DNA of 64,000 nt from Actinomycetes bacterium. GTDB taxonomy: Bacteria; Actinomycetota; Actinomycetes; Nanopelagicales; Nanopelagicaceae. Below, in pieces: positions 10,603-32,368 of the stretch. The number at the start of each line of letters is the position of its first letter. Within the stretch, counting starts at the first letter, position 1. The stretch covers positions 30,190 to 94,189 of the forward strand of contig BJFT01000003.1 in assembly GCA_014190015.1 (NCBI GenBank), given 5' to 3'. The position numbers and the translations under genes were made by a program. Below the pieces are notes generated by a model, which did no database searches, was not told where the DNA came from, and saw only the letters and a list, made by a program, of their open reading frames with translations.

Positions 10603-10689
10603 GCATCCTCCAATGAGTTCAAGATAAGTGCTCATTCTGCCCCAGTTGTATGTGGCATGTGAAGTGAATTTGAAGATAGATTTACCGCC

Positions 10690-15160: not shown

Positions 15161-15258
15161 TAACCCTCCTAATGAGTTATGTATTGCTCAAAGCCTAGGG
15201 CGCAGATGGAGCCAGCACTAGTACTTTTGGAGGCTATTTCCTAGAAGTTATGAATAAG

Positions 15259-17187
15259 TTATGAAGAACGACGGGCGCCGGCTTGCATAATCCGGTCAAA
15301 AATAACGCCTAAAAGCAAGATGGCCACGCCAGCAATAAGACCCTTGCCTTGGAGCTCTGGCTTTGAGTTACCGGCAATTACCAAGTATCCAAGACCGCCC
15401 GCGCCAACGAAGCCACCGATGACAACTACTGCCAAGACGTAAATCAAACCTTGATTGGTTGCAAGCAAAATAGTTTTCTTTGCAGCAGGCAATTGCACCT
15501 TGGTAATAATCTGGCGAGTTGTTGATCCGGCAGCAGTTGCAGCTTCAACTAGTGCATGAGGAACTGCGCGAATTCCTTCACTAACAATCTTTACGACAAC
15601 TGGAATGGCGTACACGATGCCGGTAGCAATAGCTGTGAAACGTGTTGGACCAAATAAACCTAACATCGGTACTAGATAAACAAAGGCAGGAAGTGTCTGT
15701 CCGGCATCAAGGAATGGGCGCATAACTTTCTCTGCTCGATCACTGCGACCCGACCAAATACCAAGGGCTAAACCAATAATCATGGTGAGTAAACATCCAA
15801 CAATTGTCTGGGTAAGTGTCAACATGGCTTCATACCAAAGACCAGATAGCACAATTGCCATGGATAGAACGAAAGCCATGATTGCAGTACGTGTTCCAGC
15901 AATAATCAATGCAAGTGCCACAATCATTGCAACTGTTACATACCAAGGAGATGCGGCAAGTTGTGTTTCAAGCGGGTTGAGAAAACCATAAGAAATTAAA
16001 TCTTTAAAGCCAACTGTAAATATTGTGAGATTCTCTAAAATCCAAGCCGTAATATTATTAGTTACCTTTGCGACTTGAGGTGCAATGGTGACTTCTTTTG
16101 GCCAAACGGCTGCCCACAACATTGTGCGAGACAAAATCACTGATACAACTGCAAGAATTCCACCAACAATAAGTGTGATTCTCTTTGTTTTAATCTGTTT
16201 GTCTGTCGCTGGAACAAATGAAACTTGGCGCTTAGCCGCAGCGCTAGTACTGCGATCTAGCAAAATCGCTAAAAAAACCACGGCAAAGCCCGCGACAAAG
16301 CCTTGTCCAACATTTCGAATAATCAAAGCTTCGATAACTGGCTTACCAAGTCCTGGTGCTCCAATCAGGGCAGCGATTACAACGAATGAAACGGCAGCCA
16401 TAACTGTTTGATTAATGCCAAGCACAATCATCTGCTTGGCCATTGGAATCTGAACTTTGGTCAATTTCTGCTTTTGTGTTGAGCCCATGGACTCAGCAGC
16501 TTCAACGGGTGCTTGGTTCAAACTTCTAATCGCATGGCTAGTAATTCGAATTGCGATTGGAATGGAATAAATCATCGTTGCAATCGTTGCCGAAGCTGCA
16601 CCAATCATAAATACAAGTGCGATTGGTGCCATATAAACAAGGGTTGGCAAAATTTGAGCTAAATCTAAAAATGGGGTGAATATCTTTAAGACACGATCCG
16701 ATAACCCAGCCCATATACCTAATGGAATTCCAACCGCTAATGAAAGCAGTACTGCAGCCAAAGTCATTGCAATGGAATCCATCGTGAACTGCCACATTCC
16801 CAAAGCACCGCATGCGAGTAATAGTGAAACGCACAGAAGCGCAGTTCTCCACTGACTCGTTGCATAGACTGCAAAAGCGACGATTCCAACGACACCTAAC
16901 CAACCAATAATTGGAATGACAGAGTTAGGTGTTGGAACGGAGATGAGGTTTCTGATGGCTTGGACAAAACCATCGATCACTCCACGTATTGGATTGAAGA
17001 AATAAACAAAAGCTGGACTCTCGGTTCGATTGCCGCGAAGATCTAATGCCTTTTCACCAACATAGCTAGTAAATGCAGTGTTCTCATATGTGGCAATTTG
17101 CAATGTGTGTTTGCCATTTAAAAAACGGCCTAGCAAAATCCAGATCGTTACTGAGGCAAGCAGAAGATAGGACTTACGAACCTTCAT
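15259..17187 (-). CDS. Glycine betaine/choline ABC permease with two fused permease domains
   Basis: A 642-residue membrane protein containing two tandem OpuAB/ProW-like permease modules. Each has its own coupling-loop EAA motif: EAAESMGSTQKQKLTKVQ near residue 230 and EAATAAGSTTRQIITKVQ near residue 550. An N-terminal span and soluble loop (residues about 25-85) precede the first module. Family permeases are normally about 280 residues and homodimerise, so this is a fused heterodimer. It overlaps the ATPase stop by one base and forms the channel of the importer. Confidence 0.88.
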   Translation of the reverse strand: MKVRKSYLLLASVTIWILLGRFLNGKHTLQIATYENTAFTSYVGEKALDLRGNRTESPAFVYFFNPIRGVIDGFVQAIRNLISVPTPNSVIPIIGWLGVVGIVAFAVYATSQWRTALLCVSLLLACGALGMWQFTMDSIAMTLAAVLLSLAVGIPLGIWAGLSDRVLKIFTPFLDLAQILPTLVYMAPIALVFMIGAASATIATMIYSIPIAIRITSHAIRSLNQAPVEAAESMGSTQKQKLTKVQIPMAKQMIVLGINQTVMAAVSFVVIAALIGAPGLGKPVIEALIIRNVGQGFVAGFAVVFLAILLDRSTSAAAKRQVSFVPATDKQIKTKRITLIVGGILAVVSVILSRTMLWAAVWPKEVTIAPQVAKVTNNITAWILENLTIFTVGFKDLISYGFLNPLETQLAASPWYVTVAMIVALALIIAGTRTAIMAFVLSMAIVLSGLWYEAMLTLTQTIVGCLLTMIIGLALGIWSGRSDRAEKVMRPFLDAGQTLPAFVYLVPMLGLFGPTRFTAIATGIVYAIPVVVKIVSEGIRAVPHALVEAATAAGSTTRQIITKVQLPAAKKTILLATNQGLIYVLAVVVIGGFVGAGGLGYLVIAGNSKPELQGKGLIAGVAILLLGVIFDRIMQAGARRSS

Positions 17188-18215
17188 TAGACGCCACCAG
17201 AAATTAACCGCAAAACATCCTCGCTAGAGACAATTCCTAGTGATTTGCCATTGTCATTAACCCGTACTGGTTTGTGGGACTGCAAAATTACTTGTGCGGC
17301 ATCGCGAATAATTGTGTTGGCTGCAAGTTCAGGACCATCGGTGGCATCTCCTGGCGCAGCTTGTCTGGCTAAGTGCTTCAAAGTCAGAACATGAGACTTA
17401 GCAATATCGCGCACAAAGTTAGCAACGTATTCATCTGCAGGATTAGCTACTAAATCCTCTGGTGTTCCAATTTGAACGATTGCGCCATCTCGCATAATTG
17501 CAATTCGATCTCCCACTTTTACAGCTTCTGATAGATCATGGGTAATAAAGACCATTGTCTTACCGAGTTCGTGGTGCAGACGGATAACTTCTTGCTGCAT
17601 ATCGCGGCGAATTAGTGGGTCAAGAGCTGAGAAAGGTTCATCGAGGAAAAGGACTTGTGGATCTACAGCCAATGCGCGAGCTAAACCAACGCGCTGTTGC
17701 ATTCCACCAGAGAGTTGTTCGGGGTATGCATGTGAATAACCTTGCAAGCCAACGAGTTCGATAACTTCATTGGCACGCTTGTGTCGATCAGCCTTATTAA
17801 CACCGTTGATTTCAAGTGAGTAAGCGATGTTGTCAATTACATTGCGATGAGGCAGCAAACCAAAGTGCTGAAAAACCATTGAGAAACGTGTTTTGCGAAG
17901 TTCGCGAAGTCGGGCGTTATCAACTTTTAAAATATCTTCGCCTTCAAAATTCATGGATCCTTGAGTTGGCTCAATCAAACGAGTCATGCAGCGAACAAGA
18001 GTTGATTTGCCAGATCCTGAAAGACCCATAACAACGAAGACTTCACCTGGTGCAACATCGAAAGAAACATCGCGGACCGCAATAGTGTTACCAGTTTGTG
18101 CGCGAAGTTCGGGACGAGAAAGGTTTACAAGAGGAGAGCCGACTACCTTGTCAGCATTGGCGCCGAAAACTTTCCAGAGATTCTTTACAGAGATCATCGG
18201 TGCGCCAGAAACCAT
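17187..18215 (-). CDS. Glycine betaine/choline ABC transporter ATPase (OpuAA/ProV type)
   Basis: A 342-residue ATPase. The N-terminal 45 residues contain the family's WKVFGAN element, Walker A is GLSGSGKST near residue 69, the signature is LSGGMQQR near residue 168, and Walker B is VLFLDEP near residue 188. The C-terminal part holds a single short CBS-like region (residues about 290-340) ending [11 protein letters not shown], shorter than the two full CBS domains of OpuAA that sense ionic strength. This suggests uptake for catabolism more than osmotic control. The stop of the preceding aldehyde dehydrogenase and this start are adjacent. Confidence 0.9.
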
Positions 18216-19703
18216 TTATCCATCTCCCCTATCGGAAAACCAACCAGATTTACTTGGCTCATTGTTGGTCCAAATGTGTTTAATTTCAAGGTATTCATCC
18301 AAACCAGCCTCACCTAATTCGCGGCCGACGCCTGAGGCTTTGAACCCGCCCCACTCTGCCTGCGGACGATATGGGCCAAAATCATTGACCCAGATTGTTC
18401 CGTGGCGAAGTGCGCCCGCAACTCGATTGGCAATTTTTTTATCCGCACACCAGACGGCTCCAGATAATCCATAAATGGTGTCATTGCCTAAAGTGATTGC
18501 TTCTTCAACGCTTTCAAAAGTTTCGATTGTCATGATTGGACCAAATGATTCATCCTGAACGCACTTCATCTTTGATTGGCAATTATCAATAACTGTCGGT
18601 GGGAAATACCAACCTTTATTTAAATCTTCACGATCTATGCGAGAGCCGCCAACCAAAATTGTTGCGCCATCTTTAACAGCGTCCTGCATATACGCCTCAA
18701 CTTTAGCTAAGTGTTCTTTGCTGATCAGTGGTCCAGTTTCGGTGCGGGGATCATCTGGTCCACCAACATAAATTGCCTTTGCGCGACGCACGATTTCTGT
18801 AACAACTCTGTCATGAATCGATTTCTCAACAAGAACACGAGTACCTGCAGAACAGACCTGACCTGAGTGCAAGAACGCACCTGTGACAGCGTTATCAATT
18901 GCTGCATCGATATCGCTATTTTCAAAGATAATATGTGGATTCTTGCCACCTAATTCAAGTGCAACCTTCTTAACTGTTTGTGCCGCCGTTGCCATGATGC
19001 GACGACCAGTGACAAGACCGCCGGTAAATGAGACAAGGTCAACGCGTGGATCTTCAGCTAATGGAGCACCTGCTGTAGCGCCTGCTCCACAGATTAAGTT
19101 GGCAACACCCTTTGGTAATCCAGCTTCTTCTAGCAATTTCATAAAGTGAATGGCAGTAGATGGTGATAACTCACTTGGTTTAATGATGAAAGAACAACCA
19201 GCAACTAATGCGGGTGCCGCTTTCCAAGAAATTTGTAGAAATGGATAATTCCAGGGACCAATGAGTGCGCACACACCAACTGGTTCGTGAGTAATAACGC
19301 TTGTGATGTTATCGGCGCCCACATCTACTTTTCTATCTTTAAGTTTTAAGCCAAGGGCTGCAAAGTGGCGAAAAGTAGCTTCGATATCTGCCATGTCATA
19401 ACGCGTTTCAATCATGCGTTTGCCTGTATCGCGAGTTTCAAATGCTGCAAGGATTTCGGCATCGCGCTTGATTAAATCTGCAACTTTTTCAACAAGTGCA
19501 CAGCGATCTTTCATCGACCACGATGCATAAACGCCAGAATCAAAAGATTCACGAGCCGCTTTTATTGCATCTTTAGTATCAGCAGCCGTTGCTTCTGAAA
19601 CAGTTGCGACTACAGAGTTATCGTGCGGACTTCTGATCTCGCGTACTGCTCCATCAGATGATGCAACCCATGCACCATTTATATAGAGCGTACTTTCAGC
19701 CAT
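18216..19703 (-). CDS. betB: Betaine aldehyde dehydrogenase
   Basis: A 495-residue NAD(P)-dependent aldehyde dehydrogenase. Catalytic residues are visible: Glu in LELGGKNP near residue 250 and Cys in SGQVCSAGTR near residue 285. The cofactor motif SFTGGLVTGR replaces the common FTGS. Length fits the BetB/GbsA group (about 490). The specific substrate is inferred from context: choline-dehydrogenase-like and betaine transport genes share the operon. It would convert betaine aldehyde to glycine betaine in the cytoplasm. It starts three bases after the MttB-family gene. Confidence 0.85.
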   Translation of the reverse strand: MAESTLYINGAWVASSDGAVREIRSPHDNSVVATVSEATAADTKDAIKAARESFDSGVYASWSMKDRCALVEKVADLIKRDAEILAAFETRDTGKRMIETRYDMADIEATFRHFAALGLKLKDRKVDVGADNITSVITHEPVGVCALIGPWNYPFLQISWKAAPALVAGCSFIIKPSELSPSTAIHFMKLLEEAGLPKGVANLICGAGATAGAPLAEDPRVDLVSFTGGLVTGRRIMATAAQTVKKVALELGGKNPHIIFENSDIDAAIDNAVTGAFLHSGQVCSAGTRVLVEKSIHDRVVTEIVRRAKAIYVGGPDDPRTETGPLISKEHLAKVEAYMQDAVKDGATILVGGSRIDREDLNKGWYFPPTVIDNCQSKMKCVQDESFGPIMTIETFESVEEAITLGNDTIYGLSGAVWCADKKIANRVAGALRHGTIWVNDFGPYRPQAEWGGFKASGVGRELGEAGLDEYLEIKHIWTNNEPSKSGWFSDRGDG

Positions 19704-19706
19704 GAG

Positions 19707-21146
19707 TTATGCGTCGAGTTCAGATTTGCGCTTTGCAACGAAGTCAGTGAGTTCAGCCAAAACTTGTGGATCCATCTCTGGCTTTTCGTACTCTTCTAAC
19801 TTCTTCTTCCAAATTTCTTCAGCGCGAGCACGAGTATCTTTCGCGCCAAGACGCATCCAGCGCTCGTAGTTATCGCTATTTGTTAAAAATGGACGATAGA
19901 AGCAGTCACGGAAACGCTCCATTGTGTGGGCTGCTCCGAGGAAGTGGCCACCATGGCCAACTTCAACGTGAGCATCAAATGCCAGAGAGTCTTCGTTAAA
20001 TTCAAGTGGTGTGAATTCAGCCATCAATGATTGCAGAATTTCAATATCGACTACGAACTTGTCGTAAGAAGAAACCAATCCGCCTTCGAGCCAACCAGCT
20101 GTGTGCATTACCCAGTTAGTTCCAGATAGGAATGTTGGCATCATCGTCATCATTGTTTGATACGCAGATTGTGCATCAACTGTTTGTGATGAGTTCAAGC
20201 CGCCACCGCCACGGAAAGGAAGGTTAAGCGAGCGTGCAATCTGGCCAGTGCAGAGAAGACCAATTCCTGATTCTGGTGTACCAAATTGTGGTGATCCTGA
20301 TTGCATATCAATATTTGATAAGAATGAACCAAATACAACTGGTGCACCTGGTCGAATCAGTTGAACGAGCGCGATAGCAACAAGTGCTTCTGCCATTTGC
20401 TGTGCAAGAGTTGCAGGAATAGTCACTGGACTCATCGCACCCATGAGTAAGAATGGTGTTGTAACAACTGGTTGTCCGGCTAATGCGTATTCGCGCATTG
20501 AGTCCAACATACGATCATCCCAACGCAGTGGAGAGTTGCAGTTAACGAGAGAAATTAGGGCTGGAGTCTCTTCGATTGCCGCGCGACCACCATGAATGAT
20601 TTCAGCCATACGAATAACATCTTTAGCATTTTCGTGAGTTACGACGTTACCCATAAAGAATTTGTCAGTAAGTGTTGCCGCTGCAAATGCCATATCTAAG
20701 TGGCGTGAATCAAGTGATAAATCATTAGGTTCTGTTACAACGCCACCGACTGAATCGAGTGAGTCAAATGATTGCGCTAGGCGGCAGAAGTTTTCGTAAT
20801 CTGCAAATGAACCATCGCGGCGAACATCGCCTTCACGAACGAATGGTGGGCCATACACCGCACCGAAAACCATTGAGTCGCCACCGATATGAACATTGTT
20901 CTTTGGATTGCGAGCGCGCAAATCAAATTCGCGCGGAGCTTTAGCAACTTGCTTCATTACCCAATCAGGATCGAACTTAACTGTTTCACCAGAGACTTCT
21001 TGTCCTGCTTCGCGCAACATGTCTACCGCCCAAGGGGAAGCAAACTCGATACCAATTTCAGAGACGATGCGACGCCAACCTGCGTGCAGCGTTGCCATAG
21101 ATTCTTGACTCAATATGTCATAACGCGGCATCTTGTTCTGGAACAC
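19707..21146 (-). CDS. mtgB: Non-pyrrolysine MttB-family methyltransferase, probable glycine betaine:corrinoid methyltransferase
   Basis: A 479-residue member of the trimethylamine methyltransferase superfamily (COG5598). True MttB needs pyrrolysine read from an in-frame amber codon. This frame runs full length without any internal stop, so it belongs to the non-Pyl group that includes glycine betaine methyltransferase MtgB. Family-like stretches include FRGGGGLNSSQTVDAQSAY near residue 305 and DAHVEVGHGGHFLGAAHT near residue 390. It would move one methyl from glycine betaine to the cobalt of the corrinoid protein encoded divergently, leaving dimethylglycine. The GTG at 21146 has AAAGG eight bases upstream. 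Carnitine or proline betaine remain possible, but choline-to-betaine genes next door favour glycine betaine. Confidence 0.85.
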   Translation of the reverse strand: MFQNKMPRYDILSQESMATLHAGWRRIVSEIGIEFASPWAVDMLREAGQEVSGETVKFDPDWVMKQVAKAPREFDLRARNPKNNVHIGGDSMVFGAVYGPPFVREGDVRRDGSFADYENFCRLAQSFDSLDSVGGVVTEPNDLSLDSRHLDMAFAAATLTDKFFMGNVVTHENAKDVIRMAEIIHGGRAAIEETPALISLVNCNSPLRWDDRMLDSMREYALAGQPVVTTPFLLMGAMSPVTIPATLAQQMAEALVAIALVQLIRPGAPVVFGSFLSNIDMQSGSPQFGTPESGIGLLCTGQIARSLNLPFRGGGGLNSSQTVDAQSAYQTMMTMMPTFLSGTNWVMHTAGWLEGGLVSSYDKFVVDIEILQSLMAEFTPLEFNEDSLAFDAHVEVGHGGHFLGAAHTMERFRDCFYRPFLTNSDNYERWMRLGAKDTRARAEEIWKKKLEEYEKPEMDPQVLAELTDFVAKRKSELDA

Positions 21147-21290: not shown

Positions 21291-22088
21291 ATGGCAAAAT
21301 CCGAATTAACAACTGGAACGCAAGCGATTGATCGCGCTACTGCGTTACTCACTGATGTCTTGCAATCACAAAATCCACAACTACTTGGTGCACTTGCACG
21401 CACTCATGACATTCCAAAGAGCACTACATCTCGAATTCTCGGAGCGCTCGAACGCGCAGGCCTTGTTCAACGCGATCGCAACGGTGCATTCTTAGCAGGA
21501 CACGTCCTTACATCTTTTGCACGTGAACAAAATCAGGATTCCGTACTCGTAGCTCGTATGCGCACAGTGCTTGAAACACTCTCTGATCGCACTGGTGAAA
21601 CTTCGAACTTAGCTGTTCCTGGAAATGGATTTATCAATCTCTTAGATCAAGTAGATGGTCAATATTTATTAGGAGCAACAAACTGGATCGGAAAGCGCGT
21701 TCCGTATCACGCCTCAGCACTTGGAAAAGTTTTGCTCGCATACTCTGCAGTGACAATCTCATCTGGTCGCCTTGAGCGCCTGACAGATAAGACAATTACT
21801 TCTCGCACACGTTTACTTGAAGAACTCGAAGAAGTACGTCGTCGTGGATTTGCCATTATCGAAGATGAATTAGAAGAAGGATTAGTTGCAGTTGCAGCTC
21901 CTATTCGCGAACTCGATGGTCGAGTCGTTGGTGCGATTTCTGTCTCTGGTCCATCTACTCGCTTAAGCAATAAAGAACTTATTCGAATCGGAGATCTCAT
22001 CATCTCTGAAATCGATGCAGTACAAATCAATCGCAAGAAAAAACCCCAGATGCCTAATCAAAAAATAGGAAAGGTCGGCGCAGCATGA
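21291..22088 (+). CDS. IclR-family transcriptional regulator
   Basis: A 265-residue IclR-type protein. The N-terminal winged helix (residues about 8-70) contains HDIPKSTTSRILGALERAGLVQRD, and the C-terminal effector-binding domain contains YHASALGKVLLAYS near residue 142 and VAAPIRELDGRVVGAISVSGP near residue 200. Effectors of this family are usually small catabolic intermediates, so betaine, dimethylglycine or choline are reasonable guesses only. A GGGAGGGG ribosome site precedes the ATG. It lies between the two divergent halves of the betaine pathway and overlaps the corrinoid-protein gene by four bases, marking it as their local regulator. Confidence 0.88.
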   Translation: MAKSELTTGTQAIDRATALLTDVLQSQNPQLLGALARTHDIPKSTTSRILGALERAGLVQRDRNGAFLAGHVLTSFAREQNQDSVLVARMRTVLETLSDRTGETSNLAVPGNGFINLLDQVDGQYLLGATNWIGKRVPYHASALGKVLLAYSAVTISSGRLERLTDKTITSRTRLLEELEEVRRRGFAIIEDELEEGLVAVAAPIRELDGRVVGAISVSGPSTRLSNKELIRIGDLIISEIDAVQINRKKKPQMPNQKIGKVGAA

Positions 22089-22750
22089 CACATGACGAGA
22101 TCATCAAGGCTCTCTTTGATGAAACGATGATTGGCAATGCTCCAGCAGTACTCGAACTCACAAATAAGGCGCTTGCAGAAGGAATGGGTCCAGACACCAT
22201 TTTGTTCGAAGCACTTATTCCATCTCTAGAAGAAGTTGGCGCACGTTTCGAACGTGGCGATTACTTCGTTCCAGAAATGCTTATTGCCGGTAAGGCAATG
22301 TCAGGTGCACTAAACGTTTTGCGTCCACTGCTTGCAGAGACAGGCGCTGAAACAGTTGGAACATTCCTTATGGGAACAGTTAAGGGCGATGTTCACGACA
22401 TCGGCAAGAACCTTGTAAATATCATGCTCGAAGGAGCTGGATTTAAGGTTATTGATATCGGTGTACAGGTTGCTCCAGAAAAATTCATCGCAGCAATCAA
22501 CGAACACCAACCAGATATTTTGGGAATGTCAGCATTCCTCACAACAACAATGCCAATGTTTAAGGTCAATATCCACGAGATTACTAAGGCCGGACTTCGC
22601 GACAAGGTAATCATCATGGTGGGTGGCGCACCTGTAACACAGGAATATGCAGATGCAGTTGGAGCAGATGGCTTTGCAGCGGATGCATCAACTGCAGTTC
22701 GCGTTGCTAAGGATCTAATCCAGAAGAAGCGTGCACTGGTAAATGCCTAA
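22085..22750 (+). CDS. mtgC: Methyltransferase corrinoid protein (MtgC/MtbC-like)
   Basis: A 221-residue B12-binding methyl carrier. The N-terminal helical cap domain (residues about 1-85) contains FERGDYFVPEMLIAGKAM. The Rossmann-like cobalamin domain carries the DxHxxG motif in KGDVHDIGKN, His at about residue 104 being the lower cobalt ligand, followed by SAFLTTTM and GGAPVT. It accepts the methyl from the MttB-family enzyme and passes it to tetrahydrofolate via the MtgA-like enzyme. It overlaps the regulator stop (ATGA). No corrinoid synthesis gene is in the window, so cobalamin must come from elsewhere in the genome or from outside. Confidence 0.93.
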   Translation: MTHDEIIKALFDETMIGNAPAVLELTNKALAEGMGPDTILFEALIPSLEEVGARFERGDYFVPEMLIAGKAMSGALNVLRPLLAETGAETVGTFLMGTVKGDVHDIGKNLVNIMLEGAGFKVIDIGVQVAPEKFIAAINEHQPDILGMSAFLTTTMPMFKVNIHEITKAGLRDKVIIMVGGAPVTQEYADAVGADGFAADASTAVRVAKDLIQKKRALVNA

Positions 22751-23138
22751 ATTATTAAACCTGTTGCTAGCTGTCGAACATGGCATGAAAAAGCCTGTGT
22801 GGGATTGCACTATGTGCGGACAATGCGTTCTGCACTCAACAGGTATGACATGTCCAATGACATGTCCCAAAACGCTGCGCAATGGTCCTTGCGGTGGGGT
22901 CCGCGAAGATGGTCATTGCGAAGTAAAACCAGAGATGAGATGTGTTTGGGTTAAGGCCTACGATCGTAAAGTTTCTCTTCCGCTACCGACCGTGTGGAAA
23001 GAGCATTACAACGATCTACGCCCACCCGTTGATATGCAACTCAAGGGAACTTCTTCATGGGTTAACTTGATTACAAAGCGTGATCAACAAACTCCTGCAG
23101 GATGGGCCAAGCGCAAAGAAGAGACGGGCGCACATTAA
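22743..23138 (+). CDS. metV: MetV-like Cys-rich partner of methylene-THF reductase (MTHFR C-terminal domain)
   Basis: A 131-residue Cys-rich protein matching the MTHFR_C/MetV domain known from acetogens and some aerobes. Cys clusters CTMCGQC near residue 21 and CPMTCPKTLRNGPCGG near residue 37, plus later single Cys residues, probably bind zinc or an iron-sulfur cluster. It is shorter than acetogen MetV proteins (about 200). It overlaps the corrinoid gene by eight bases and the metF stop/start by one base, so stoichiometric synthesis with MetF is likely. It is probably an electron-transfer or scaffold subunit for oxidising CH3-THF. Confidence 0.8.
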   Translation: MPKLLNLLLAVEHGMKKPVWDCTMCGQCVLHSTGMTCPMTCPKTLRNGPCGGVREDGHCEVKPEMRCVWVKAYDRKVSLPLPTVWKEHYNDLRPPVDMQLKGTSSWVNLITKRDQQTPAGWAKRKEETGAH

Positions 23139-24040
23139 TGTCTAAGCTGCGCGATTTACTTACACAATCTAAGGACGTTGTTTACACCGCTGAATTTCCT
23201 GTCATAGATGGCGGCGGCATGGAACAAGTTAAGAAAAACGTAGACCGTCTTTCTCCTTGGTTTGTAGCAGTAAATGCAACAGATAACACAGCAGCGCACG
23301 CGCACGCTTCAAATGTCTCTGTAGCAATTGCAATGAAACAGCACGGCCTTGAACCAATCATGCAAATTGTCTGTCGCGATAAGAATCGTCTTGCAGTTCA
23401 AGCCGATATGGCCGGTGCAAATCTGCACGGCATTGAAAACATCGCACTCCTTACCGGTGATGACGTCACCGCAGGTGATGAACCGGAGACTCGGCGCGTA
23501 TTTGATCTAGATGGCCCACAAGCAATTAATGTCGCATCAATTCTTAATGCAGGTACTTATCTTTCTGGTCGCAAACTAAGCCCTGCGCCCAATTTCTTTA
23601 TTTGTTCCGTTGAAAACCCCTTCGCTCCCCCACATGATTACCGCATCGAGCGCGCACTGAAAAAACACCGTGCTGGCGCTCAGATGATTCAACTTCAAAT
23701 TGGTTATCACCCAGATCGTCTCGAAAAATTCTGCGCCGGCGTTGCTGCAACAGTTCCAGATTTAGCAATTATTCCCAGCGTTGTTCTTATTAAGAGTGCA
23801 AAGCCACTCGGCTTTATGAACGATAAAGTTCCGGGCATCAGCGTTCCCCAAGAAGTTATTGATCGTGTTGCTCAATCAGCAGATCAAGCAGAAGCTGCAT
23901 ACCAACTTGCACTCGAACAAGCCAAGCACGCACTCTCCTTGCCAGGTGTGCGTGGATTGCACATCACAGATTTCCGCCACGATGACACTCTTGAGCGGTT
24001 AATGTACGACCTCGGCCGAACACCAAACCAATACAAGTAA
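23138..24040 (+). CDS. metF: 5,10-methylenetetrahydrofolate reductase, MetF type
   Basis: A 300-residue flavin-dependent MTHFR. The start at 23138 (MSKLRD) is preferred to the track's 23102 because it overlaps the upstream stop as TAATG. TAEFPVIDGGGMEQV holds the N-terminal Glu of the first strand, NATDNTAAHA follows near residue 48, and the folate-site motif LTGDDVTAGDE is near residue 105. In most bacteria MetF makes CH3-THF for methionine. Here, between methyl-transfer genes and with a MetV partner, it more likely runs in the oxidative direction, turning CH3-THF from betaine into CH2-THF. Confidence 0.85.
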   Translation: MSKLRDLLTQSKDVVYTAEFPVIDGGGMEQVKKNVDRLSPWFVAVNATDNTAAHAHASNVSVAIAMKQHGLEPIMQIVCRDKNRLAVQADMAGANLHGIENIALLTGDDVTAGDEPETRRVFDLDGPQAINVASILNAGTYLSGRKLSPAPNFFICSVENPFAPPHDYRIERALKKHRAGAQMIQLQIGYHPDRLEKFCAGVAATVPDLAIIPSVVLIKSAKPLGFMNDKVPGISVPQEVIDRVAQSADQAEAAYQLALEQAKHALSLPGVRGLHITDFRHDDTLERLMYDLGRTPNQYK

Positions 24041-24054
24041 CAGGAGCTGCGCAC

Positions 24055-24918
24055 ATGCATACAGTCGTTCAATCAGCATCAAAGACCGTAACTATCGGCC
24101 ACGATCAACCTTTCGTCATTATTGGTGAGCGCATTAACCCAACAGGTCGTAAGAAGTTTCAAGAACTATTGCGTGCAGGAGATCTCTCAACTATTGCTGT
24201 AGATGTTGAATCTCAAATCAAGGGCGGCGCTGACATGCTAGATGTCAACATGGGTGTGCCACTAACTGATGAACCGGCACTTTTGTCCAAGGCCATCAAG
24301 ATGATTCAAGGTATGACTGATATGCCAATTTGTATTGACTCATCCGTTATTGAAGCGCTGCAAGCAGGACTTGAAGCGTACGAGGGTAAAGCACTCGTTA
24401 ACTCAATGACCGGTGAAGATGATCGTATGGAATTAATCCTGCCGCTGATTAAAAAGCACAATGCTGCAATTATTGCGCTACCAAATGATGAGATTGGTAT
24501 TCCAGCAACTGCCGCAGAGCGCATTGTTATTACAGAAAAGATTATCCGAACTGTAGAAAAACACGGCATCTCACTAGATAACTTAGTTATTGATCCACTT
24601 GCAATGACTGTGGGTGCAGACCCTGATGCAGTTAAAATCACGTTGGAAACCATTCACCTCATCCGTGAAAAATTTGGCCTAAACATGACACTCGGTGCGT
24701 CAAATATTTCATTTGGTCTTCCAAATCGTCACGCTCTTAACGCTGCATTCTTGCCAGCTGCAATGTCACACGGTCTGACATGTGCGGTCATGGATGCACG
24801 CACACCAGCGATTAATGAAGCAGTTCGCGCTGCAGATCTATTGCTCGGTATGGATCAATGGGGCGGAAATTGGATTACACGATTCCGTGCACAAGAAGCG
24901 GCAAAGGCAGAGGGATAA
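24055..24918 (+). CDS. mtgA: Methyl-corrinoid:tetrahydrofolate methyltransferase (MtgA/AcsE-like)
   Basis: A 287-residue pterin-binding TIM-barrel protein of the DHPS/methyltransferase fold. IIGERINPTGRKKF near residue 22 is the family's characteristic opening, MLDVNMGVP near residue 61 contains the Asp-Asn pair that binds the pterin, and GASNISFGLPNR near residue 222 is the late conserved loop. It would take the methyl from methyl-Co(III) on the corrinoid protein to tetrahydrofolate. It lacks the homocysteine and B12 domains of methionine synthase. An AGGAG site is 10 bases before the ATG. Confidence 0.9.
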   Translation: MHTVVQSASKTVTIGHDQPFVIIGERINPTGRKKFQELLRAGDLSTIAVDVESQIKGGADMLDVNMGVPLTDEPALLSKAIKMIQGMTDMPICIDSSVIEALQAGLEAYEGKALVNSMTGEDDRMELILPLIKKHNAAIIALPNDEIGIPATAAERIVITEKIIRTVEKHGISLDNLVIDPLAMTVGADPDAVKITLETIHLIREKFGLNMTLGASNISFGLPNRHALNAAFLPAAMSHGLTCAVMDARTPAINEAVRAADLLLGMDQWGGNWITRFRAQEAAKAEG

Positions 24919-24921
24919 GTC

Positions 24922-26826
24922 ATTAGCAAAAAAGAGCTCGACCCGTCACTTATTCCAGCACACGATGGAACAGGTCGCATCAAGCTGACTTTTCGCGTGC
25001 TCGAAAAAGATGGTTCAGTTGCAAATGAAAAAGGTTTCACTGTTCCAACTGGTGTGAGTGCATTTGACGCGGCATCCTGGAACGGAATTGCAATTGATTC
25101 AACCTGCGGTGGATACGGAACATGTAAGAAGTGTCGTATCAAAGTAACAACAGGAGATGTCGAACCTTCCAAACTTGATTACCGTGCCTTTACTGAAACA
25201 GAGATCAAAGAGGGCTGGCGTTTGGCGTGCTTAGTTCGCGCTGCCAAAGATGTCACACTCGATGTTCCACCGCTAACAACTCGTCCAAAGGCTGCAACAG
25301 TTGGTGTTGGACGCCAAGTTATTTTGCGCCCTGCCGTACAAAAGCGTTACGTCGAATTAGAAGAGCCAACGCTTCATGATCAGCGCACAGATATTGTCCG
25401 TTTATTTGATGCTATCGATGACATTGAAGCAACTATCTCCTTAGCTGCAATGCGCAATCTGCCAAAAGTTCTTCGATCTTCATACTTCAAAGTAACCGCC
25501 GTCTTTGTAGATCAAGAACTCATCGACATTGAAGCAGGCGATACAACTGAACTTCGCTACGGAATTGCCTATGACTTAGGCACAACAACGGTTGTTGCAA
25601 CGCTGCTTGATTTAAATACCGGCACACCTGTTGCGGTTAAATCCATGCTCAATAAACAACAACCATTTGGCGCTGATGTAATTTCTCGAATTTCAGCAAC
25701 CATGATGGATACGACCGCACTTGATCGTCTGCGTAGATTTGCGCAACAAACTTTGGCAGAACTCAGTGCTGAAGTATGCGAAGAAGCAGGCGTTGATCCA
25801 CGAAATGTTTATGAAGTAGCACTTGCAGGCAATGCAACGATGACGCAACTGGCTCTCGGTATTGATCCAGAACCACTAGGTGTTGCTCCATTTATTATGG
25901 TCAGCGCATCTTTTCCTGATGTTCAGGCATCAGAACTCGGAATCAACGTTCACCCACGCGCAAAAGCAGTAATCATGCCTTCACTCGGTGCCTACGTTGG
26001 CGGCGACATTGTTGCTGGCGCACTTGCATCCGGTATGGATCGCGACAAGCGCCTTCGTTTGTTTATTGATGTGGGTACAAACTGCGAAATTATCTTAGGA
26101 GATGGCGACAAGATTCTTGCAACCGCTGCTCCTGCTGGACCAGCCTTTGAAGCAGCATCCATTAAATGTGGAGTACGCGCAGCATCTGGCGCCATTGAAA
26201 CAATCAAAGTTGTAGATGGCGATTTAGAAATTGGAACGATTGAAAATACAAAAGCAATCGGTATCTGTGGTTCAGGCCTTGTTGATGCGTGCGCATCCCT
26301 TGTTCAATTGGGATTACTTGATAACTCAGGACGTTTTGTTACACCTGAACAAGCAGCAATTGCGGCTCCAAAAGTTGCACATCGTCTTGTCGAACGCGAA
26401 GGCGAGCGAGTATTTGTATTGACATGGGGCGGAACCGAAGGCGATCTCAATGATTGCGTATTTTTAACACAACGCGATGTTCGCGAACTTCAATTCGCTA
26501 AAGCTGCAATTGCAACTGGTTGGGCGCTATTGCTCGAAGAGTTTGGTGTTGCAGAGAGTGAAATCCAACAAGTTTTATTGGCAGGCTCATTCGGTTCTTA
26601 TCTATCCCCGGCATCAGCGGTAAAAATCGGATTAGTTCCTAAGCTTCCAGTGATGCGCATTGTCTCTGCTGGAAACGTTGCTGGTGAAGGCGCCAAGATG
26701 GTTTTGTTATCTGCCCAAGAGCGAAACGGTGCGATGGCGCTTCTGGATGAAATCGATTACATCGAATTATCTGATCGCGCAGACTTTAACGATAAGTTCG
26801 TTGAGCGCCTGAGCTTTCCTGCGTAG
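24922..26826 (+). CDS. RamA-like corrinoid reductive activator (ferredoxin plus ASKHA-like domain)
   Basis: An iron-sulfur protein of about 634 residues that would use ATP to reduce inactive Co(II) corrinoid back to Co(I). The N-terminal [2Fe-2S] ferredoxin domain has CGGYGTCKKC at about residues 62-71. The large C-terminal part has ASKHA-like nucleotide motifs YDLGTTTVVATLLDL and FIDVGTNCEIILG. The track's GTG at 24997 would cut off the first ferredoxin strand (RIKLTF). The only in-frame start between the upstream stop and that strand is ATT at 24922, with GAGGGA eight or so bases before it, giving an N-terminus ISKKELDP. An ATT start is rare, so an assembly error (ATG) is the main alternative. 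Confidence 0.85.
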   Translation: MSKKELDPSLIPAHDGTGRIKLTFRVLEKDGSVANEKGFTVPTGVSAFDAASWNGIAIDSTCGGYGTCKKCRIKVTTGDVEPSKLDYRAFTETEIKEGWRLACLVRAAKDVTLDVPPLTTRPKAATVGVGRQVILRPAVQKRYVELEEPTLHDQRTDIVRLFDAIDDIEATISLAAMRNLPKVLRSSYFKVTAVFVDQELIDIEAGDTTELRYGIAYDLGTTTVVATLLDLNTGTPVAVKSMLNKQQPFGADVISRISATMMDTTALDRLRRFAQQTLAELSAEVCEEAGVDPRNVYEVALAGNATMTQLALGIDPEPLGVAPFIMVSASFPDVQASELGINVHPRAKAVIMPSLGAYVGGDIVAGALASGMDRDKRLRLFIDVGTNCEIILGDGDKILATAAPAGPAFEAASIKCGVRAASGAIETIKVVDGDLEIGTIENTKAIGICGSGLVDACASLVQLGLLDNSGRFVTPEQAAIAAPKVAHRLVEREGERVFVLTWGGTEGDLNDCVFLTQRDVRELQFAKAAIATGWALLLEEFGVAESEIQQVLLAGSFGSYLSPASAVKIGLVPKLPVMRIVSAGNVAGEGAKMVLLSAQERNGAMALLDEIDYIELSDRADFNDKFVERLSFPA

Positions 26827-26829
26827 AAC

Positions 26830-27411
26830 ATGTCTGTTGCCGTAATTGCATGTGGTGCAATTGCCACACATATCTCAAACATAACTGATGCAGAAAAACT
26901 AGATGTAACCATCTATCCCCTGCCTCCACTTCTTCATAATCAACCTGCAAAAATTGCTGGCGAAGTTGAGAAAACTTATCTAGAAATTAAAGATAAGCAC
27001 ACTAAATGCGCTGTTGCATACGCCGATTGCGGTACATATGGCGCACTCGATACCGTCATTGAAAAACTCGGCTTAAAACGTTTAGGTGGCAATCATTGCT
27101 ATGACATCTTCGCTGGAAAAGAGAAGGTTCAGGCAATTATGGATGCTGACGCAGGAACTTATTTCTTAACTGATTTTCTCGTTAAATCATTTCATCGAAG
27201 CGTTATCGTCGAACTCGGCTTAGATAAGCGTCCTGATCTACGTGATGATTACTTTAAGCATTACAAGAAGATGGTGTGGCTAGCCCAGAATCCAACACCA
27301 GAGTTAAGCGTTATGGCGCAAGCGGCGGCGGATTTGATTGGCTTAGAACTTGAAATTGATGTTGTTGGTGAAGGCAGCCTGAAAGAACAAATCCTGGAAT
27401 TACTTAACTGA
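26830..27411 (+). CDS. DUF1638 protein
   Basis: A 193-residue DUF1638 protein, a family of unknown biochemical role that repeatedly occurs beside corrinoid methyltransferase genes. Conserved-looking residues include IACGAI near residue 5, YADCGTYG near residue 65 and GGNHCYDIFAG near residue 85. The several Cys and His residues could hold a metal or cofactor. It starts three bases after the activator stop and its 3' end overlaps the convergent fdsA gene by 12 bases. A role in corrinoid handling or repair is a guess from context. Confidence 0.85.
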   Translation: MSVAVIACGAIATHISNITDAEKLDVTIYPLPPLLHNQPAKIAGEVEKTYLEIKDKHTKCAVAYADCGTYGALDTVIEKLGLKRLGGNHCYDIFAGKEKVQAIMDADAGTYFLTDFLVKSFHRSVIVELGLDKRPDLRDDYFKHYKKMVWLAQNPTPELSVMAQAAADLIGLELEIDVVGEGSLKEQILELLN

Positions 27412-30387
27412 CTCCAGCTCCATAGCCTTTAGAACAATTGGGCTGAGCTTGCTTCGATCTACATCGTTGTGCAGACGCTCACGCATCTCTGGAGTCCAGA
27501 ACTGAACAATGTGATGAGCAACTTCAATTTCAGGAGCACCCGTAGTTGGAACATTTGCCGCAATTTGATTTGCCATACGAATGATTGAATCTAATTGTGA
27601 ATCTCCAGCAATTTCATGCTCGTGCATAACTGCTGGGCCTTTTTCACTTGGTGAAATTTCAACAGCAGTGACTTTGTATTCAGGGCAGTTTGTTGCCCAA
27701 TCTGAATAATCTGTAGTGATTACGTTGGCACCTGATTCAGGGAAGTGGAAGGTTGTATAGACAACTCCTGCGGGAACGGAATCAGTAATTCGCGCGTGCA
27801 TGATTGTCTCGCCCACGCGTGATGAAAGCTTTACCCACGAACCATCTTTGATACCACGCATTTCGGCATCTGATTCGTGAATGTCCAAAATGTCTTCGCT
27901 GTGCCAGATGTTATTTGCTGTGCGACGTGTTTGTGCACCCACGTTGTACTGACTCAAGATTCGGCCTGTTGTAAGTAATAGTGGGAACTTTCGTGTGGAT
28001 TTTTCTAGTGTTGCGACGTATGGCGTAGCCATGAACTTTCCTTCACCGCGAACAAATTCGTTGATGTGCATTGTTGGCGTGCCTTCAGGAGCCTTTTCAT
28101 TAACTGGCCATTGAAGTGAACCAACGCGATCTAAGTGTTCGAATGAAACACCGGCAAATGTTGGAGTTGTAGCTGCAATTTCATCCATGATTTGTGCAGC
28201 ATTTTCATATGACATCTCATAACCCATTGCACGTGCAAGATCGCACGTTACTTCGTATTCAGTCTTTCCTGTCTTTGAAGGCATTACTGGGCGAACACGA
28301 TTGATGCGGCGTTCAGCATTTGTAAATGTTCCATCTTTTTCTAGGAAAGATGTACCTGGCAAGAAAACATGTGCAAACTTAGAGGTTTCATTGAGGAACA
28401 AATCTTGAACAATAACCATATCCATGGCGCGAAGCGCAGCGTGAACATGCGTGGTATTTGGATCTGATTGCGCAATATCTTCACCGTGCACATAAAGACC
28501 ACGGAACTTATTGCCAAGGGCTGAATCAAACATATTTGGAATACGTAAGCCTGGTTCTGGACGAAGAGTTACGCCCCACTTTTTATTGTAGATATCACGA
28601 ACATCATCACGAGAAATATGACGGTAGCCAGGAAGCTCGTGTGGGAATGAACCCATGTCACAAGAGCCTTGCACATTGTTCTGTCCACGAAGTGGATTAA
28701 CTCCAACACCCTTGCGACCGATGTTTCCGGTTGCCATTGCTAGGTTTGCAATTCCCATAACCATTGTTGAACCTTGGCTATGTTCTGTAACACCAAGTCC
28801 GTAATAAATCGCGCCATTTGGAGCTGCTGCGAACATGCGTGCTGCTTCGCGGATTTTTGCAGCCGGTACACCTGATGCTGCTTCGAGAGTTTCAGGAGAG
28901 TTCTCTGGGAATGAGATGAACTTTTCCCAATCGGCAAAAGCTTGCAGATCGCAACGTTCTTCCACGAACGTGCGATCAATCAAACCTTCTGTTGCAATTA
29001 CGTGAGCAAGTGCGTTGATGACTGCAACGTTTGTGCCGGGCAGTAATTGCAAGTGGAAATCAGCTTCAACGTGTGCGGATTTAACAGTTTCTGTAACGCG
29101 AGGATCAACAACAATTAACTTAGCGCCGCGACGAAGAGCTTGCTTCATGCGTGAGTTAAATACTGGGTGCGCAGCAGCTGGGTTAGCGCCAATAACCATG
29201 ATGACATCTGCGAATTCAACAGATTCAAAATCCTGAGTACCGGCAGATGTTCCAAATGTCTTGCTCAATCCATAACCCGTTGGTGAGTGACATACGCGCG
29301 CGCATGTATCTACGTTGTTATTTCCAAATGCTGCACGCACCATCTTTTGAACGACATAAACCTCTTCATTGGTGCATCGAGATGATGTGATTCCACCGAT
29401 TGAATCAACACCACTTTCGGCCTGAATTTTCTTAAGACCCGCGGCTGCAAAAGCGATTGCTTCTTCAAATGAAACTTCACGCCATTGATCTGTGATTTTT
29501 TCGCGAATCATTGGCTTGGTAATGCGATCGTTGTGAGTTGCATATCCCCACGCAAAGCGTCCCTTAACGCATGAGTGACCAGCATTTGCTCCACCATCTT
29601 TAAGCGGAACCATGCGCACGAGTTCGTCCCCACGCATTTCAGCTTTAAATGAGCAACCAACGCCACAGTACGCACACGTTGTTATAACGGAACGAGTAGG
29701 CGCACCGATTGTTAGCAAGGTCTTTTCTGTCAGCGCACCTGTTGGACACGCCTGTACACATGCTCCACACGAAACGCATTCACTTTCAATAAATGATGTA
29801 CCTGACGATGAAACACGAGCTTCAAAGCCACGGTTTTCAATTGTGAGTGCAAATGTTCCTTGTACTTCATCGCATGCACGCACGCAGCGGTTACAGACGA
29901 TGCACTCTGTTGAATCAAATGTGAAGTACGGATTTGTCTCATCTTTTACAAGGCCGAGGTGAGTTTTACCCTCGTAGCGAACTTCTGTGAGGCCAACCTC
30001 TTTAGCCATTCCGTGCATTTTGCACTCATCGCCTGTTTCACAATTAGCTGGATGATCTGACATGTAGAGCTCCATGACACCACGGCGAATTTTCTGCACG
30101 CGATCGCTCTTGGTAGAAACTTTCATGCCATCTGATACAGGAGTTGTGCAAGAAGAAGGTGTGCCATTTCGTCCATCAATTTCTACAACGCATAAACGAC
30201 ACGAACCAAATGCTTTGAGGCGATCAGTTGCGCATAATTTTGGAATGTTATTGCCGAGCATTGCTGCTGCTCGCATAATTGAAGTTTCAGCAGGAACTGT
30301 TACGGATTTTCCATCAATTTCGACAGTAACTGTTTCGATCTTTTTGCTCGCAGGAGTGCCGAAATCTGGTTCGATGATCATTGTCAT
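27400..30387 (-). CDS. fdsA: NAD-type formate dehydrogenase, molybdenum catalytic subunit (FdsA-like)
   Basis: A 995-residue subunit oxidising formate to CO2. In order: an N-terminal [2Fe-2S] NuoG-like domain (Cys residues 52, 63, 66 and 80), a HxxxC-type cluster near residues 111-122, two [4Fe-4S] ferredoxin motifs (CIVCNRCVRAC from 162; CVSCGACVQAC from 204), the catalytic-domain cluster CAYCGVGC from 238, and the Mo ligand Cys at about 366 in CARVCHSPTG, where E. coli FdhF has selenocysteine. The C-terminal molybdopterin-dinucleotide domain follows. It overlaps fdsB by four bases. The small fdsD seen in some operons is absent. Confidence 0.93.
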   Translation of the reverse strand: MTMIIEPDFGTPASKKIETVTVEIDGKSVTVPAETSIMRAAAMLGNNIPKLCATDRLKAFGSCRLCVVEIDGRNGTPSSCTTPVSDGMKVSTKSDRVQKIRRGVMELYMSDHPANCETGDECKMHGMAKEVGLTEVRYEGKTHLGLVKDETNPYFTFDSTECIVCNRCVRACDEVQGTFALTIENRGFEARVSSSGTSFIESECVSCGACVQACPTGALTEKTLLTIGAPTRSVITTCAYCGVGCSFKAEMRGDELVRMVPLKDGGANAGHSCVKGRFAWGYATHNDRITKPMIREKITDQWREVSFEEAIAFAAAGLKKIQAESGVDSIGGITSSRCTNEEVYVVQKMVRAAFGNNNVDTCARVCHSPTGYGLSKTFGTSAGTQDFESVEFADVIMVIGANPAAAHPVFNSRMKQALRRGAKLIVVDPRVTETVKSAHVEADFHLQLLPGTNVAVINALAHVIATEGLIDRTFVEERCDLQAFADWEKFISFPENSPETLEAASGVPAAKIREAARMFAAAPNGAIYYGLGVTEHSQGSTMVMGIANLAMATGNIGRKGVGVNPLRGQNNVQGSCDMGSFPHELPGYRHISRDDVRDIYNKKWGVTLRPEPGLRIPNMFDSALGNKFRGLYVHGEDIAQSDPNTTHVHAALRAMDMVIVQDLFLNETSKFAHVFLPGTSFLEKDGTFTNAERRINRVRPVMPSKTGKTEYEVTCDLARAMGYEMSYENAAQIMDEIAATTPTFAGVSFEHLDRVGSLQWPVNEKAPEGTPTMHINEFVRGEGKFMATPYVATLEKSTRKFPLLLTTGRILSQYNVGAQTRRTANNIWHSEDILDIHESDAEMRGIKDGSWVKLSSRVGETIMHARITDSVPAGVVYTTFHFPESGANVITTDYSDWATNCPEYKVTAVEISPSEKGPAVMHEHEIAGDSQLDSIIRMANQIAANVPTTGAPEIEVAHHIVQFWTPEMRERLHNDVDRSKLSPIVLKAMELESVK

Positions 30388-31928
30388 TTCTTGGCACCTC
30401 CTGTGAAGTCTTCTGGAAAGTTATTCATGGCACTCTTTACTGGAAGCGGAGTGAGTCCGCCCATTGCGCAGAGAGATCCATCGGTCATCACTTCGCACAA
30501 GTCTAAGAGCAATAACTTATTTGCGGGAACATCCACGCCAGAAATAATCTTCTCAATGGTTTCAGCCCCGCGTGTAGAACCCAAGCGACATGGAGTGCAC
30601 TTGCCGCAGGACTCAAGTGCGCAGAACTCCATTGCAAACTTTGCTTGTTGGGCAAGATCGACAGAGTCATCAAATAGAACAACGCCACCGTGGCCAAGCA
30701 TTCCGCCAGCTGCAGCCAATGATTCGTAATCCATTGAAACACCGAGTTGTGATGAGTTGAAATAAGCACCGAGTGGGCCACCAATTTGAATTGCGCGAAG
30801 TGGTTTACCACTAAGAGTTCCGCCACCAAAAGTGTTTACGAGTGTTTCTAAAGTAACTCCGAATGCTGTTTCAATAATTCCGCCACGAGCAATGTTGCCG
30901 GCCAATTGGAAAACCTGTGTGCCGAGTGATCGACCTGTTCCGCGTGCTGCATATGCAGCAGCGCCATCTGCAATTACTGCAGGAACGCTTGCAAGAGTTA
31001 GAACGTTATTAATTATTGTGGGTTTTCCAAAGAGACCTGCAATTGCAGGTAGCGGTGGCTTTGAACGAATAACACCACGCTTACCTTCAAGGCTTTCAAG
31101 CATTGCGGTCTCTTCACCGCACACATAAGAACCAGCGCCAACTCGAACTTCTAGATTAAATGCATGCTTGCTTCCAAGAACTGAAGTACCTAGTACTCCA
31201 GCACCTTCTGCAATTGCAATGGCATCGCGCAGACGTCTGATTGCTGTTGGATATTCAGAGCGCAGGTAAACAAAGCCTTGTGTTGCACCGACTGCAACAG
31301 CTGCAATTGCCATTCCTTCAATAAGAGTAAATGGATCAGCTTCAATCAAAATACGATCTGCAAACGTTCCACTATCGCCTTCATCTGCGTTACAGCAAAC
31401 ATATTTTTGATCAGCTTGCGCGTCCAGAACTGTCTTCCATTTAATACCTGCAGGAAAGCCTGCTCCCCCACGTCCACGTAAACCTGAAGCAGTAACCTCG
31501 GCAACAATGTCACTGCCACTTTGAGTGATTGCTTTACGCAAACCAACTAGACCACCGTGTGATTCATACTCCTTAAGTGAAAGCGGATCAATTAACCCAA
31601 CGCGCTTGTACGTAACGCGATCTTGACCTGCAAACCATGCAATCTGATCAGTTACACCAAGTGCGAGTGGATGTGCACCACCGTGCAAGAAATCTGCATC
31701 AAATAAAGATGAAACATCTTCTGGTTGCACAGGGCCATATGCGATGCGACCTTGTGGTGTCACAACTTCAACGAGAGTTTCAAGCCACAGAGCACCACGA
31801 GTTCCATTACGTACAATGGTTACATCGAGAGAGCGCTTGACTGCTTCTTGCGCAACAAGGGCAGCTACTTGATCTGCGCCAATAGAAATAGCAGCACTGT
31901 CATTAGGAATGTAGATGATTGTGCTCAT
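30384..31928 (-). CDS. fdsB: Formate dehydrogenase, NADH/FMN subunit (FdsB, NuoF-like)
   Basis: A 514-residue NuoF homologue with a preceding thioredoxin-like region. The glycine-rich GLRGRGGAGFPAGIKWK near residue 148 binds NAD(H)/FMN, ESLEGKRGVIRSKPP is typical of the family, and the [4Fe-4S] motif ESCGKCTPCRLG lies near residue 443. It passes electrons from the FdsA clusters to NAD+. Overlaps of four bases with both neighbours point to tight co-translation. Its presence marks this enzyme as the soluble, NAD-reducing type. Confidence 0.92.
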   Translation of the reverse strand: MSTIIYIPNDSAAISIGADQVAALVAQEAVKRSLDVTIVRNGTRGALWLETLVEVVTPQGRIAYGPVQPEDVSSLFDADFLHGGAHPLALGVTDQIAWFAGQDRVTYKRVGLIDPLSLKEYESHGGLVGLRKAITQSGSDIVAEVTASGLRGRGGAGFPAGIKWKTVLDAQADQKYVCCNADEGDSGTFADRILIEADPFTLIEGMAIAAVAVGATQGFVYLRSEYPTAIRRLRDAIAIAEGAGVLGTSVLGSKHAFNLEVRVGAGSYVCGEETAMLESLEGKRGVIRSKPPLPAIAGLFGKPTIINNVLTLASVPAVIADGAAAYAARGTGRSLGTQVFQLAGNIARGGIIETAFGVTLETLVNTFGGGTLSGKPLRAIQIGGPLGAYFNSSQLGVSMDYESLAAAGGMLGHGGVVLFDDSVDLAQQAKFAMEFCALESCGKCTPCRLGSTRGAETIEKIISGVDVPANKLLLLDLCEVMTDGSLCAMGGLTPLPVKSAMNNFPEDFTGGAKK

Positions 31929-32368
31929 GCGGTTACCTTTTCAACTGTCGCACGACCAACAAGTTCGCCATCAACCATTGCTGCTGGTGAAAGGGCGCAA
32001 TTTCCAAAACAGTACGCTGCCTTAATTTCTACATCTGCGTGTGTTTCATCAATTTTCTTTCCGAGTTTTTTCTCAACTGCTGCAACTAGTTCGCGAGAGC
32101 CGACTGCTTGGCACGCTTCTGCTACACAGATTTGAATGCATCTAGCGGGCGCAGGTGCTGTACGCAGATCGTGATAATACGTAAGTACGCCGTGTACATC
32201 TGCTCGAGATACGTTAAATGTTTCTGCAATTAATCCAACTGCATCCTCATGGACGTAACCAAAACGTTCTTGAACAGCTTGCAGTGCAATCAGCACTGGA
32301 CCTTGAACGTTTTTCAAAGGAGACAACACGCGTGTTGCTTCTTCGATACTCCATGATGGAAATGACAT
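31925..32368 (-). CDS. fdsG: Formate dehydrogenase, NuoE-like [2Fe-2S] subunit (FdsG)
   Basis: A 147-residue thioredoxin-fold ferredoxin of the NuoE family. The four Cys ligands are arranged as C-x4-C (CVAEAC near residue 78) and C-x3-C (CFGNC near residue 119). An N-terminal helical region with FGYVHEDAVGLIAE is usual for the family. It completes the FdsGBA core. One base separates it from the formate-THF ligase stop. Confidence 0.92.
   Translation of the reverse strand: MSFPSWSIEEATRVLSPLKNVQGPVLIALQAVQERFGYVHEDAVGLIAETFNVSRADVHGVLTYYHDLRTAPAPARCIQICVAEACQAVGSRELVAAVEKKLGKKIDETHADVEIKAAYCFGNCALSPAAMVDGELVGRATVEKVTA

Follow-up and report, generated by a model that had tools for sequence, protein, structure and literature searches.

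What does a methylene-tetrahydrofolate (methylene-THF) reductase of the MetVF type do in an aerobic actinobacterium, in which direction does it run, and where do its electrons go? In acetogens, the anaerobes from which MetVF is chiefly known, it is not settled which redox partner the enzyme uses in the cell, and the same enzyme type is found here in aerobes. We analyzed a window of 64,000 nucleotides from an actinomycete genome, whose named relatives and taxonomy (Nanopelagicales) indicate a Candidatus Planktophila-like host. A preliminary description of this DNA had noted a split MetV-MetF enzyme in a methyl-transfer operon and had proposed that it works backwards, from CH3-THF to CH2-THF.

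The two genes lie next to each other on the forward strand. The first, metV (22743..23138, +), starts with ATG and encodes a short iron-sulfur subunit of 131 aa that matches PF12225, "Methylene-tetrahydrofolate reductase C terminal" (E 1.6e-26). The second, metF (23138..24040, +), encodes a 300-aa TIM-barrel flavin subunit of the MetV-partnered type that matches PF02219 (E 1.7e-26; 93.7 bits, cut-off 24). At the junction, TAATG, the metV stop codon ends on the same A with which the metF ATG begins, so that the genes overlap by exactly one base; a longer metF frame from 23102 offers an alternative start upstream. At its 5' end, metV overlaps the corrinoid-protein gene by 8 bases. metF follows metV in 64 of the 66 homologous loci with enough flank to tell, and the one-base overlap is the commonest arrangement among homologous loci (32 loci). 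Therefore, the arrangement is not due to chance. The short Cys-rich protein and its one-base overlap with metF were thus described correctly at the outset, and on sequence grounds the genes are assigned as a MetVF-type (type II, or 2S) methylene-THF reductase pair.

MetV has eight cysteines, at positions 22, 25, 28, 37, 41, 50, 59, and 67, and all eight are invariant across 51 homologues. Purified Clostridium ljungdahlii MetVF contains about 15 Fe per (MetVF)2, which was interpreted as two [4Fe-4S] clusters in each MetV (PMC8760232), and the eight cysteines fit this number. We suggest that MetV here also carries two [4Fe-4S] clusters. A sequence search found no homologue of MetV with a solved structure, and the predicted structure of MetV alone was of low confidence (mean pLDDT 57). 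We also folded the metV-metF pair of a homologous locus (L071) with the metV stop read through, purely as a modeling device. The MetF portion of this model was confident, and a Foldseek search found that its fold resembles those of MTHFRs. The MetV portion and its placement were of low confidence, and the MetV-MetF interface in the model was set aside. In a close-relative MAG, the metV gene (L033:8932-9324, the same place as L003) has an in-frame TAG, which marks either a pseudogene or an assembly error.

In an alignment with Escherichia coli MetF, the equivalents of Glu28, Asp120, Lys172, and Gln183 are retained. The positions of E. coli His88, Arg118, Tyr131, Tyr152, His156, and Asp165, which we take to be contacts to the outer half of FAD, are substituted in the MetV-partnered MetFs that we compared, whereas canonical MetFs of the same genus retain His88, Arg118, His156, and Asp165. 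The loss of these residues would fit FMN as the flavin, as reported for C. ljungdahlii. The MetVF of C. formicoaceticum has been reported to bind FAD (PMC8515935).

The pair resembles the MetVF of acetogens such as C. ljungdahlii (PMC8760232, PMC8515935) in the adjacent metV and metF genes, in the eight cysteines that fit two [4Fe-4S] clusters, and in the retained MetF active-site residues. Neither RnfC2 (type III) nor HdrABC-MvhD (type IV) genes were found among the neighbors of metVF by Pfam search and inspection, and in this the pair is again like that of C. ljungdahlii. It differs from the acetogen enzymes in two ways. MetV has 131 aa here, whereas that of C. ljungdahlii is a 23.5-kDa protein. 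In an alignment with a single acetogen-type sequence, the MetV of Acetoanaerobium, nothing in our MetV corresponded to the N-terminal half. In addition, the pair sits in a betaine demethylation locus, and no CODH/ACS gene was found among the neighbors identified around it.

The operon begins with a gene for an IclR-type regulator (21291..22088, +; PF01614, PF09339). It is followed by mtgC for a corrinoid protein (22085..22750, +; PF02310, PF02607), whose best NCBIfam match is MtgC at 208 bits, below the 370-bit cut-off. Downstream of metF are genes for the methyl-THF:corrinoid protein methyltransferase MtgA, called MtgD in the Ruegeria naming (24055..24918, +; PF00809; NF005719, 301 bits, cut-off 259), a RACo/RamA-type corrinoid reactivase with 2Fe-2S and ASKHA parts (24997..26826, +; PF14574, PF17651, PF17650, PF00111), and a DUF1638 protein (26830..27411, +; PF07796). 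The pair therefore has corrinoid-protein and methyl-THF:corrinoid methyltransferase genes on either side, which places it inside a methyl-transfer operon, as first described. A divergent MttB-superfamily gene (19707..21146, -; PF06253, E 1.3e-187) probably encodes the glycine betaine:corrinoid methyltransferase MtgB; its frame is open and has no pyrrolysine TAG. MtgB, MtgC, MtgD, the RamA-type reactivase, and DUF1638 are thus all present together in the locus, MtgC with a score below its NCBIfam cut-off.

Several further minus-strand genes surround this block. The dimethylglycine dehydrogenase and the divergent MttB protein were identified by Pfam, and the others by inspection and by matches to annotated loci. 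On one side are genes for a betaine-aldehyde dehydrogenase-like protein (BetB-like; 18216..19703, -; by synteny), a ProXWV-type betaine ABC transporter (14201..18215, -; matching annotated ProV/ProW of Azoarcus), and a choline dehydrogenase-like protein (BetA; 12442..14091, -; by synteny). On the other side are three genes for a formate dehydrogenase (catalytic, NuoF-like, and NuoE-like; 27400..32368, -; by synteny), a formate-THF ligase (Fhs; 32370..34034, -; 58% identical to an Fhs-like gene in an Acetoanaerobium locus), EtfA and EtfB (34038..35755, -; matching annotated Etf genes of Azoarcus), and a dimethylglycine/sarcosine dehydrogenase with a GcvT domain (35755..38277, -; PF01266, PF16350, PF01571). 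The BetA-, BetB-, and ProXWV-like neighbors and the dimethylglycine dehydrogenase point to glycine betaine as the likely substrate of the locus. By eye, molybdenum-cofactor-like genes and an FdhD-like gene (window 40025-42902 and 11619-12500) accompany the formate dehydrogenase, and two divergent acetamidase/formamidase-like genes (window 9676-11622) lie near its cluster.

The closest described system is the MtgBCDE betaine demethylase/split methionine synthase of Ruegeria pomeroyi and Phaeobacter inhibens (PMC12478193). Both systems have MtgB, MtgC, the pterin-binding MtgD, a RamA-type reactivase, DUF1638, and a separate homocysteine-binding subunit, and in both MetH was not found. Mausz et al. 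(2025) reported that R. pomeroyi MtgC and MtgD serve betaine demethylation and methionine synthesis alike, and that about 70% of marine MtgBCD genomes lack MetH (PMC12478193). The hosts differ, an actinobacterium here and proteobacteria there. MetV adjoins MetF here, whereas the main text of that report does not mention MetV, and R. pomeroyi has both metF and metF2 (PMC12478193). Judged by its gene content, our locus is the actinobacterial counterpart of the Ruegeria-type system, with MetV beside MetF and with no second PF02219 metF found in this lineage. Oxidative, single-subunit MetF enzymes that act on CH3-THF also occur in aerobes, namely the MetF2 of Methylobacterium in chloromethane metabolism and the MetF of Sphingobium SYK-6; neither is known to work with a MetV.

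This locus is not specific to the window. The same block occurs on Sinorhizobium meliloti pSymB, a Paracoccus aminovorans plasmid, and Azoarcus sp. KH32C pAZKH, where the genes for the corrinoid protein, DUF1638, MetV, MetF, MtgA, and the ASKHA reactivase also form one block. It occurs as well in many loci of Actinomycetota, among them other Nanopelagicales, Planobispora, and a Thermoleophilia bin, and of Chloroflexi. MetV-MetF is found across several aerobes, Actinomycetota, and Chloroflexi, and thus is not an acetogen marker. The Azoarcus locus shares with ours a dimethylglycine-dehydrogenase-type oxidoreductase, Etf, and ProVW, but it also has PurU, unlike ours. MetV is longer in the Azoarcus, Sinorhizobium, and Paracoccus loci than here. 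A PF13769 gene lies directly 5' of metV in Sinorhizobium (L022:11460-11762) and Azoarcus (L028:9534-9869); none was found in the window, and none is annotated in the Paracoccus locus. Therefore, the methyl-transfer context originally reported was borne out, but it belongs to a widespread locus that is coupled to methionine synthesis through a common corrinoid protein.

The genome as a whole is 92% complete. Searches with PF02574 and B12-binding_2 found no MetH, and MetE was not found either; the single-contig relatives G014 and G015 have the same pattern. The only PF02574 gene, on contig C12, encodes a stand-alone 292-aa lone homocysteine methyltransferase (MtgE-type), which scores 287 bits against the betaine-homocysteine methyltransferase model, below the cut-off of 338. 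There are two B12-binding_2 matches, mtgC and an uncharacterized 292-aa frame. MetH is probably absent because the shared MtgC pool feeds the lone homocysteine methyltransferase for methionine.

We tabulated by hand 73 genomes of the same genus, including this one, of which 26 have metV and 47 do not. Full-length MetH was found in 0/26 metV-positive and 41/47 metV-negative genomes (Fisher p 2e-14, uncorrected for kinship). The lone homocysteine methyltransferase showed the reverse distribution (24/26 versus 1/47; Fisher p 7e-16, likewise uncorrected). In an rpoB tree limited to 16 genus genomes, as the rpoB search missed many MAGs, the metV-positive genomes did not group as a single clade (AU p 0.030). 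The tree calls for two or more changes, which gives the swap only about two replicates.

The ordinary metF is also affected. It was kept in 8 of the 26 metV-positive genomes and was not found in the other 18, some of which are incomplete. Its usual slot lies between genes resembling CDP-alcohol phosphatidyltransferase and prenyl-diphosphate synthase (genomes compared, names by inspection). In six MetVF-only genomes, namely this genome (G000), G014, G015, G047, G041, and G011, metF is missing and the flanks of the slot are intact. Therefore, a break in the assembly at this position does not account for the missing gene here. A profile search found a single PF02219 gene here, the metF of the pair, and in G014 and G015, too, no PF02219 reductase other than MetVF was found. 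By "sole reductase" we mean the sole PF02219 member; flavin-independent mycobacterial MTHFRs have been reported to lack a significant PF02219 match (PMC7857596). Because MetVF is the sole PF02219 member and MetH and MetE were not found, MetVF must also run reductively for methionine, or else these lineages take the methionine methyl group from betaine. More telling than the pair itself is a finding beyond the coordinates of the preliminary description: this locus takes the place of MetH and, in some lineages, of MetF. The genus-wide swap carries the connection of betaine demethylation with methionine synthesis, recently shown in marine Proteobacteria, over to freshwater Actinomycetota, and it predicts a dependence on betaine or B12 in abundant lake bacteria.

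The gene set suggests the following pathway. Choline or betaine would be imported, and MtgB would pass one methyl group to MtgC. MtgA would transfer the methyl from MtgC to THF, giving CH3-THF, which MetVF would oxidize to CH2-THF. In this reaction, MetF would hold the flavin and the folate site, and MetV would carry electrons between the flavin and an outside partner through its two [4Fe-4S] clusters. FolD and Fhs would convert CH2-THF to formate, with ATP, and formate dehydrogenase would produce CO2 and reductant. The further methyl groups would be handled by dimethylglycine dehydrogenase.

From context, energetics, and precedent, we infer that the net direction with betaine present is oxidative, a reading that we favor with some reserve. 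In its favor, the genes from import to formate are together in one locus, and FolD is encoded elsewhere in the genome. In the analogous aerobic pathway of Ruegeria, the metF paralogue MetF2 was proposed to oxidize methyl-THF on betaine, where it is strongly induced (PMC12478193). In the eight relatives with an ordinary MetF, a catabolic MetVF beside it would be a natural division of labor. The proposal that MetVF works backwards thus gained support from the betaine uptake, demethylation, formate-THF ligase, and formate dehydrogenase genes. However, the preliminary description had named the lack of a second metF as part of what would count against it, and no second PF02219 gene was found in this genome, where the ordinary metF slot is empty, so MetVF may also be used reductively for methionine.

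A bidirectional enzyme, which we consider rather unlikely, would be oxidative on betaine. When betaine is scarce, it would convert CH2-THF to CH3-THF with electrons from flavodoxin, ferredoxin, or another low-potential carrier, and the methyl would pass through MtgA and MtgC to the homocysteine methyltransferase and methionine. The loss of metF from the same slot in the six MetVF-only genomes and the retained homocysteine methyltransferase agree with this, as does the ability of C. ljungdahlii MetVF to take ferredoxin, flavodoxin, and thioredoxin in vitro (PMC8515935). However, with ETF or menaquinone as acceptor, the reverse reaction would be strongly uphill, the methionine methyl could come from betaine itself, and eight relatives keep MetF alongside MetVF. 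Those eight would carry two anabolic enzymes if MetVF simply replaced MetF for methionine and owed its place in the betaine operon to the shared corrinoid protein. Such a solely anabolic role would accord with the mutual exclusion of MetH and MetVF in the genus and with the homocysteine methyltransferase gene that five Anaerolineae-type loci (L103, L108, L109, L110, and L112) carry within the block. It is nevertheless highly improbable, as the Fhs, formate dehydrogenase, and betaine genes are catabolic in logic and the Ruegeria paralogue responds to betaine. Conversely, MetVF-only lineages (this genome, G014, G015, G047, and others) might lack any methylene-THF reductase that works reductively. 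MetVF would then be purely oxidative, with ETF or menaquinone as acceptor, and the cell would have to obtain the methionine methyl from betaine or choline that it takes up, by way of MtgB, MtgC, and the lone homocysteine methyltransferase. We regard this as unlikely; if true, an abundant freshwater bacterium would need both an osmolyte and B12 to make its methionine.

For the favored oxidative direction, energetics narrow the choice of acceptor. The CH2-THF/CH3-THF couple lies at about -200 mV, NAD at -320 mV, and menaquinone at -74 mV, and CH3-THF oxidation with NAD+ is uphill by 23 kJ/mol (PMC13391211). From these potentials, we calculated about -24 kJ/mol for menaquinone; ferredoxin would be energetically unfavorable as acceptor. 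Purified C. ljungdahlii MetVF, a type II enzyme, is inactive with NAD(P)H (PMC8760232, PMC8515935) and was assayed by methyl-THF-dependent viologen reduction (PMC8515935). Therefore, the acceptor is most likely a high-potential carrier. Transfer to NAD+, directly or through the NuoEF-like module of the formate dehydrogenase, is improbable. The NuoE/F-like genes are in the cluster, and the RnfC2-MetVF complex of A. woodii slowly reduces NAD+ with CH3-THF (PMC8760232), but no RnfC2-like gene was seen beside metVF, and the reaction is uphill. Moreover, three loci (L044, L047, and L050) keep MetVF and lack formate dehydrogenase genes between DUF1638 and Fhs, and we set aside formate dehydrogenase as a required partner.

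The ETF encoded in the cluster is the best, though still tentative, candidate for the acceptor. No ETF-QO of PF05187 was found in the genome search. However, a 610-aa protein on contig C57 has as its only match PDB 9ojn, "Iron-sulfur-binding reductase" (E 1.4e-190), which we take to be the mycobacterial EtfD of PMC13083937, an ETF:menaquinone oxidoreductase. A route from MetVF through ETF and EtfD to menaquinone is thus plausible. Proximity does not single out ETF as the MetVF partner: the 13 loci with Etf all have dimethylglycine dehydrogenase, a known ETF-partner type, and Etf is absent from the retrieved flank in many loci. The possible partners in aerobes (ETF, EtfD, and menaquinone) differ from those in acetogens. 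Aerobic MetVF hosts include the genetically workable S. meliloti, in which direction and acceptor can be tested outside strict anaerobes.

Other arrangements of the pair were seen among the homologous loci. Fused MetF-MetV proteins are encoded on plasmids of Burkholderia arboris (501 aa; L030:2047-6384) and Acinetobacter lwoffii (463 aa; L025:6921-13948). MesX-, MesD-, and flavin-reductase-like genes lie near both, with those of B. arboris named by inspection; Price et al. (2021) did not settle where MesD obtains its methyl group (PMC7857596). An Anaerolineales locus (L103:1527-8159) has two MetV-MetF pairs, with MttB, MtgC, and homocysteine methyltransferase genes between them.
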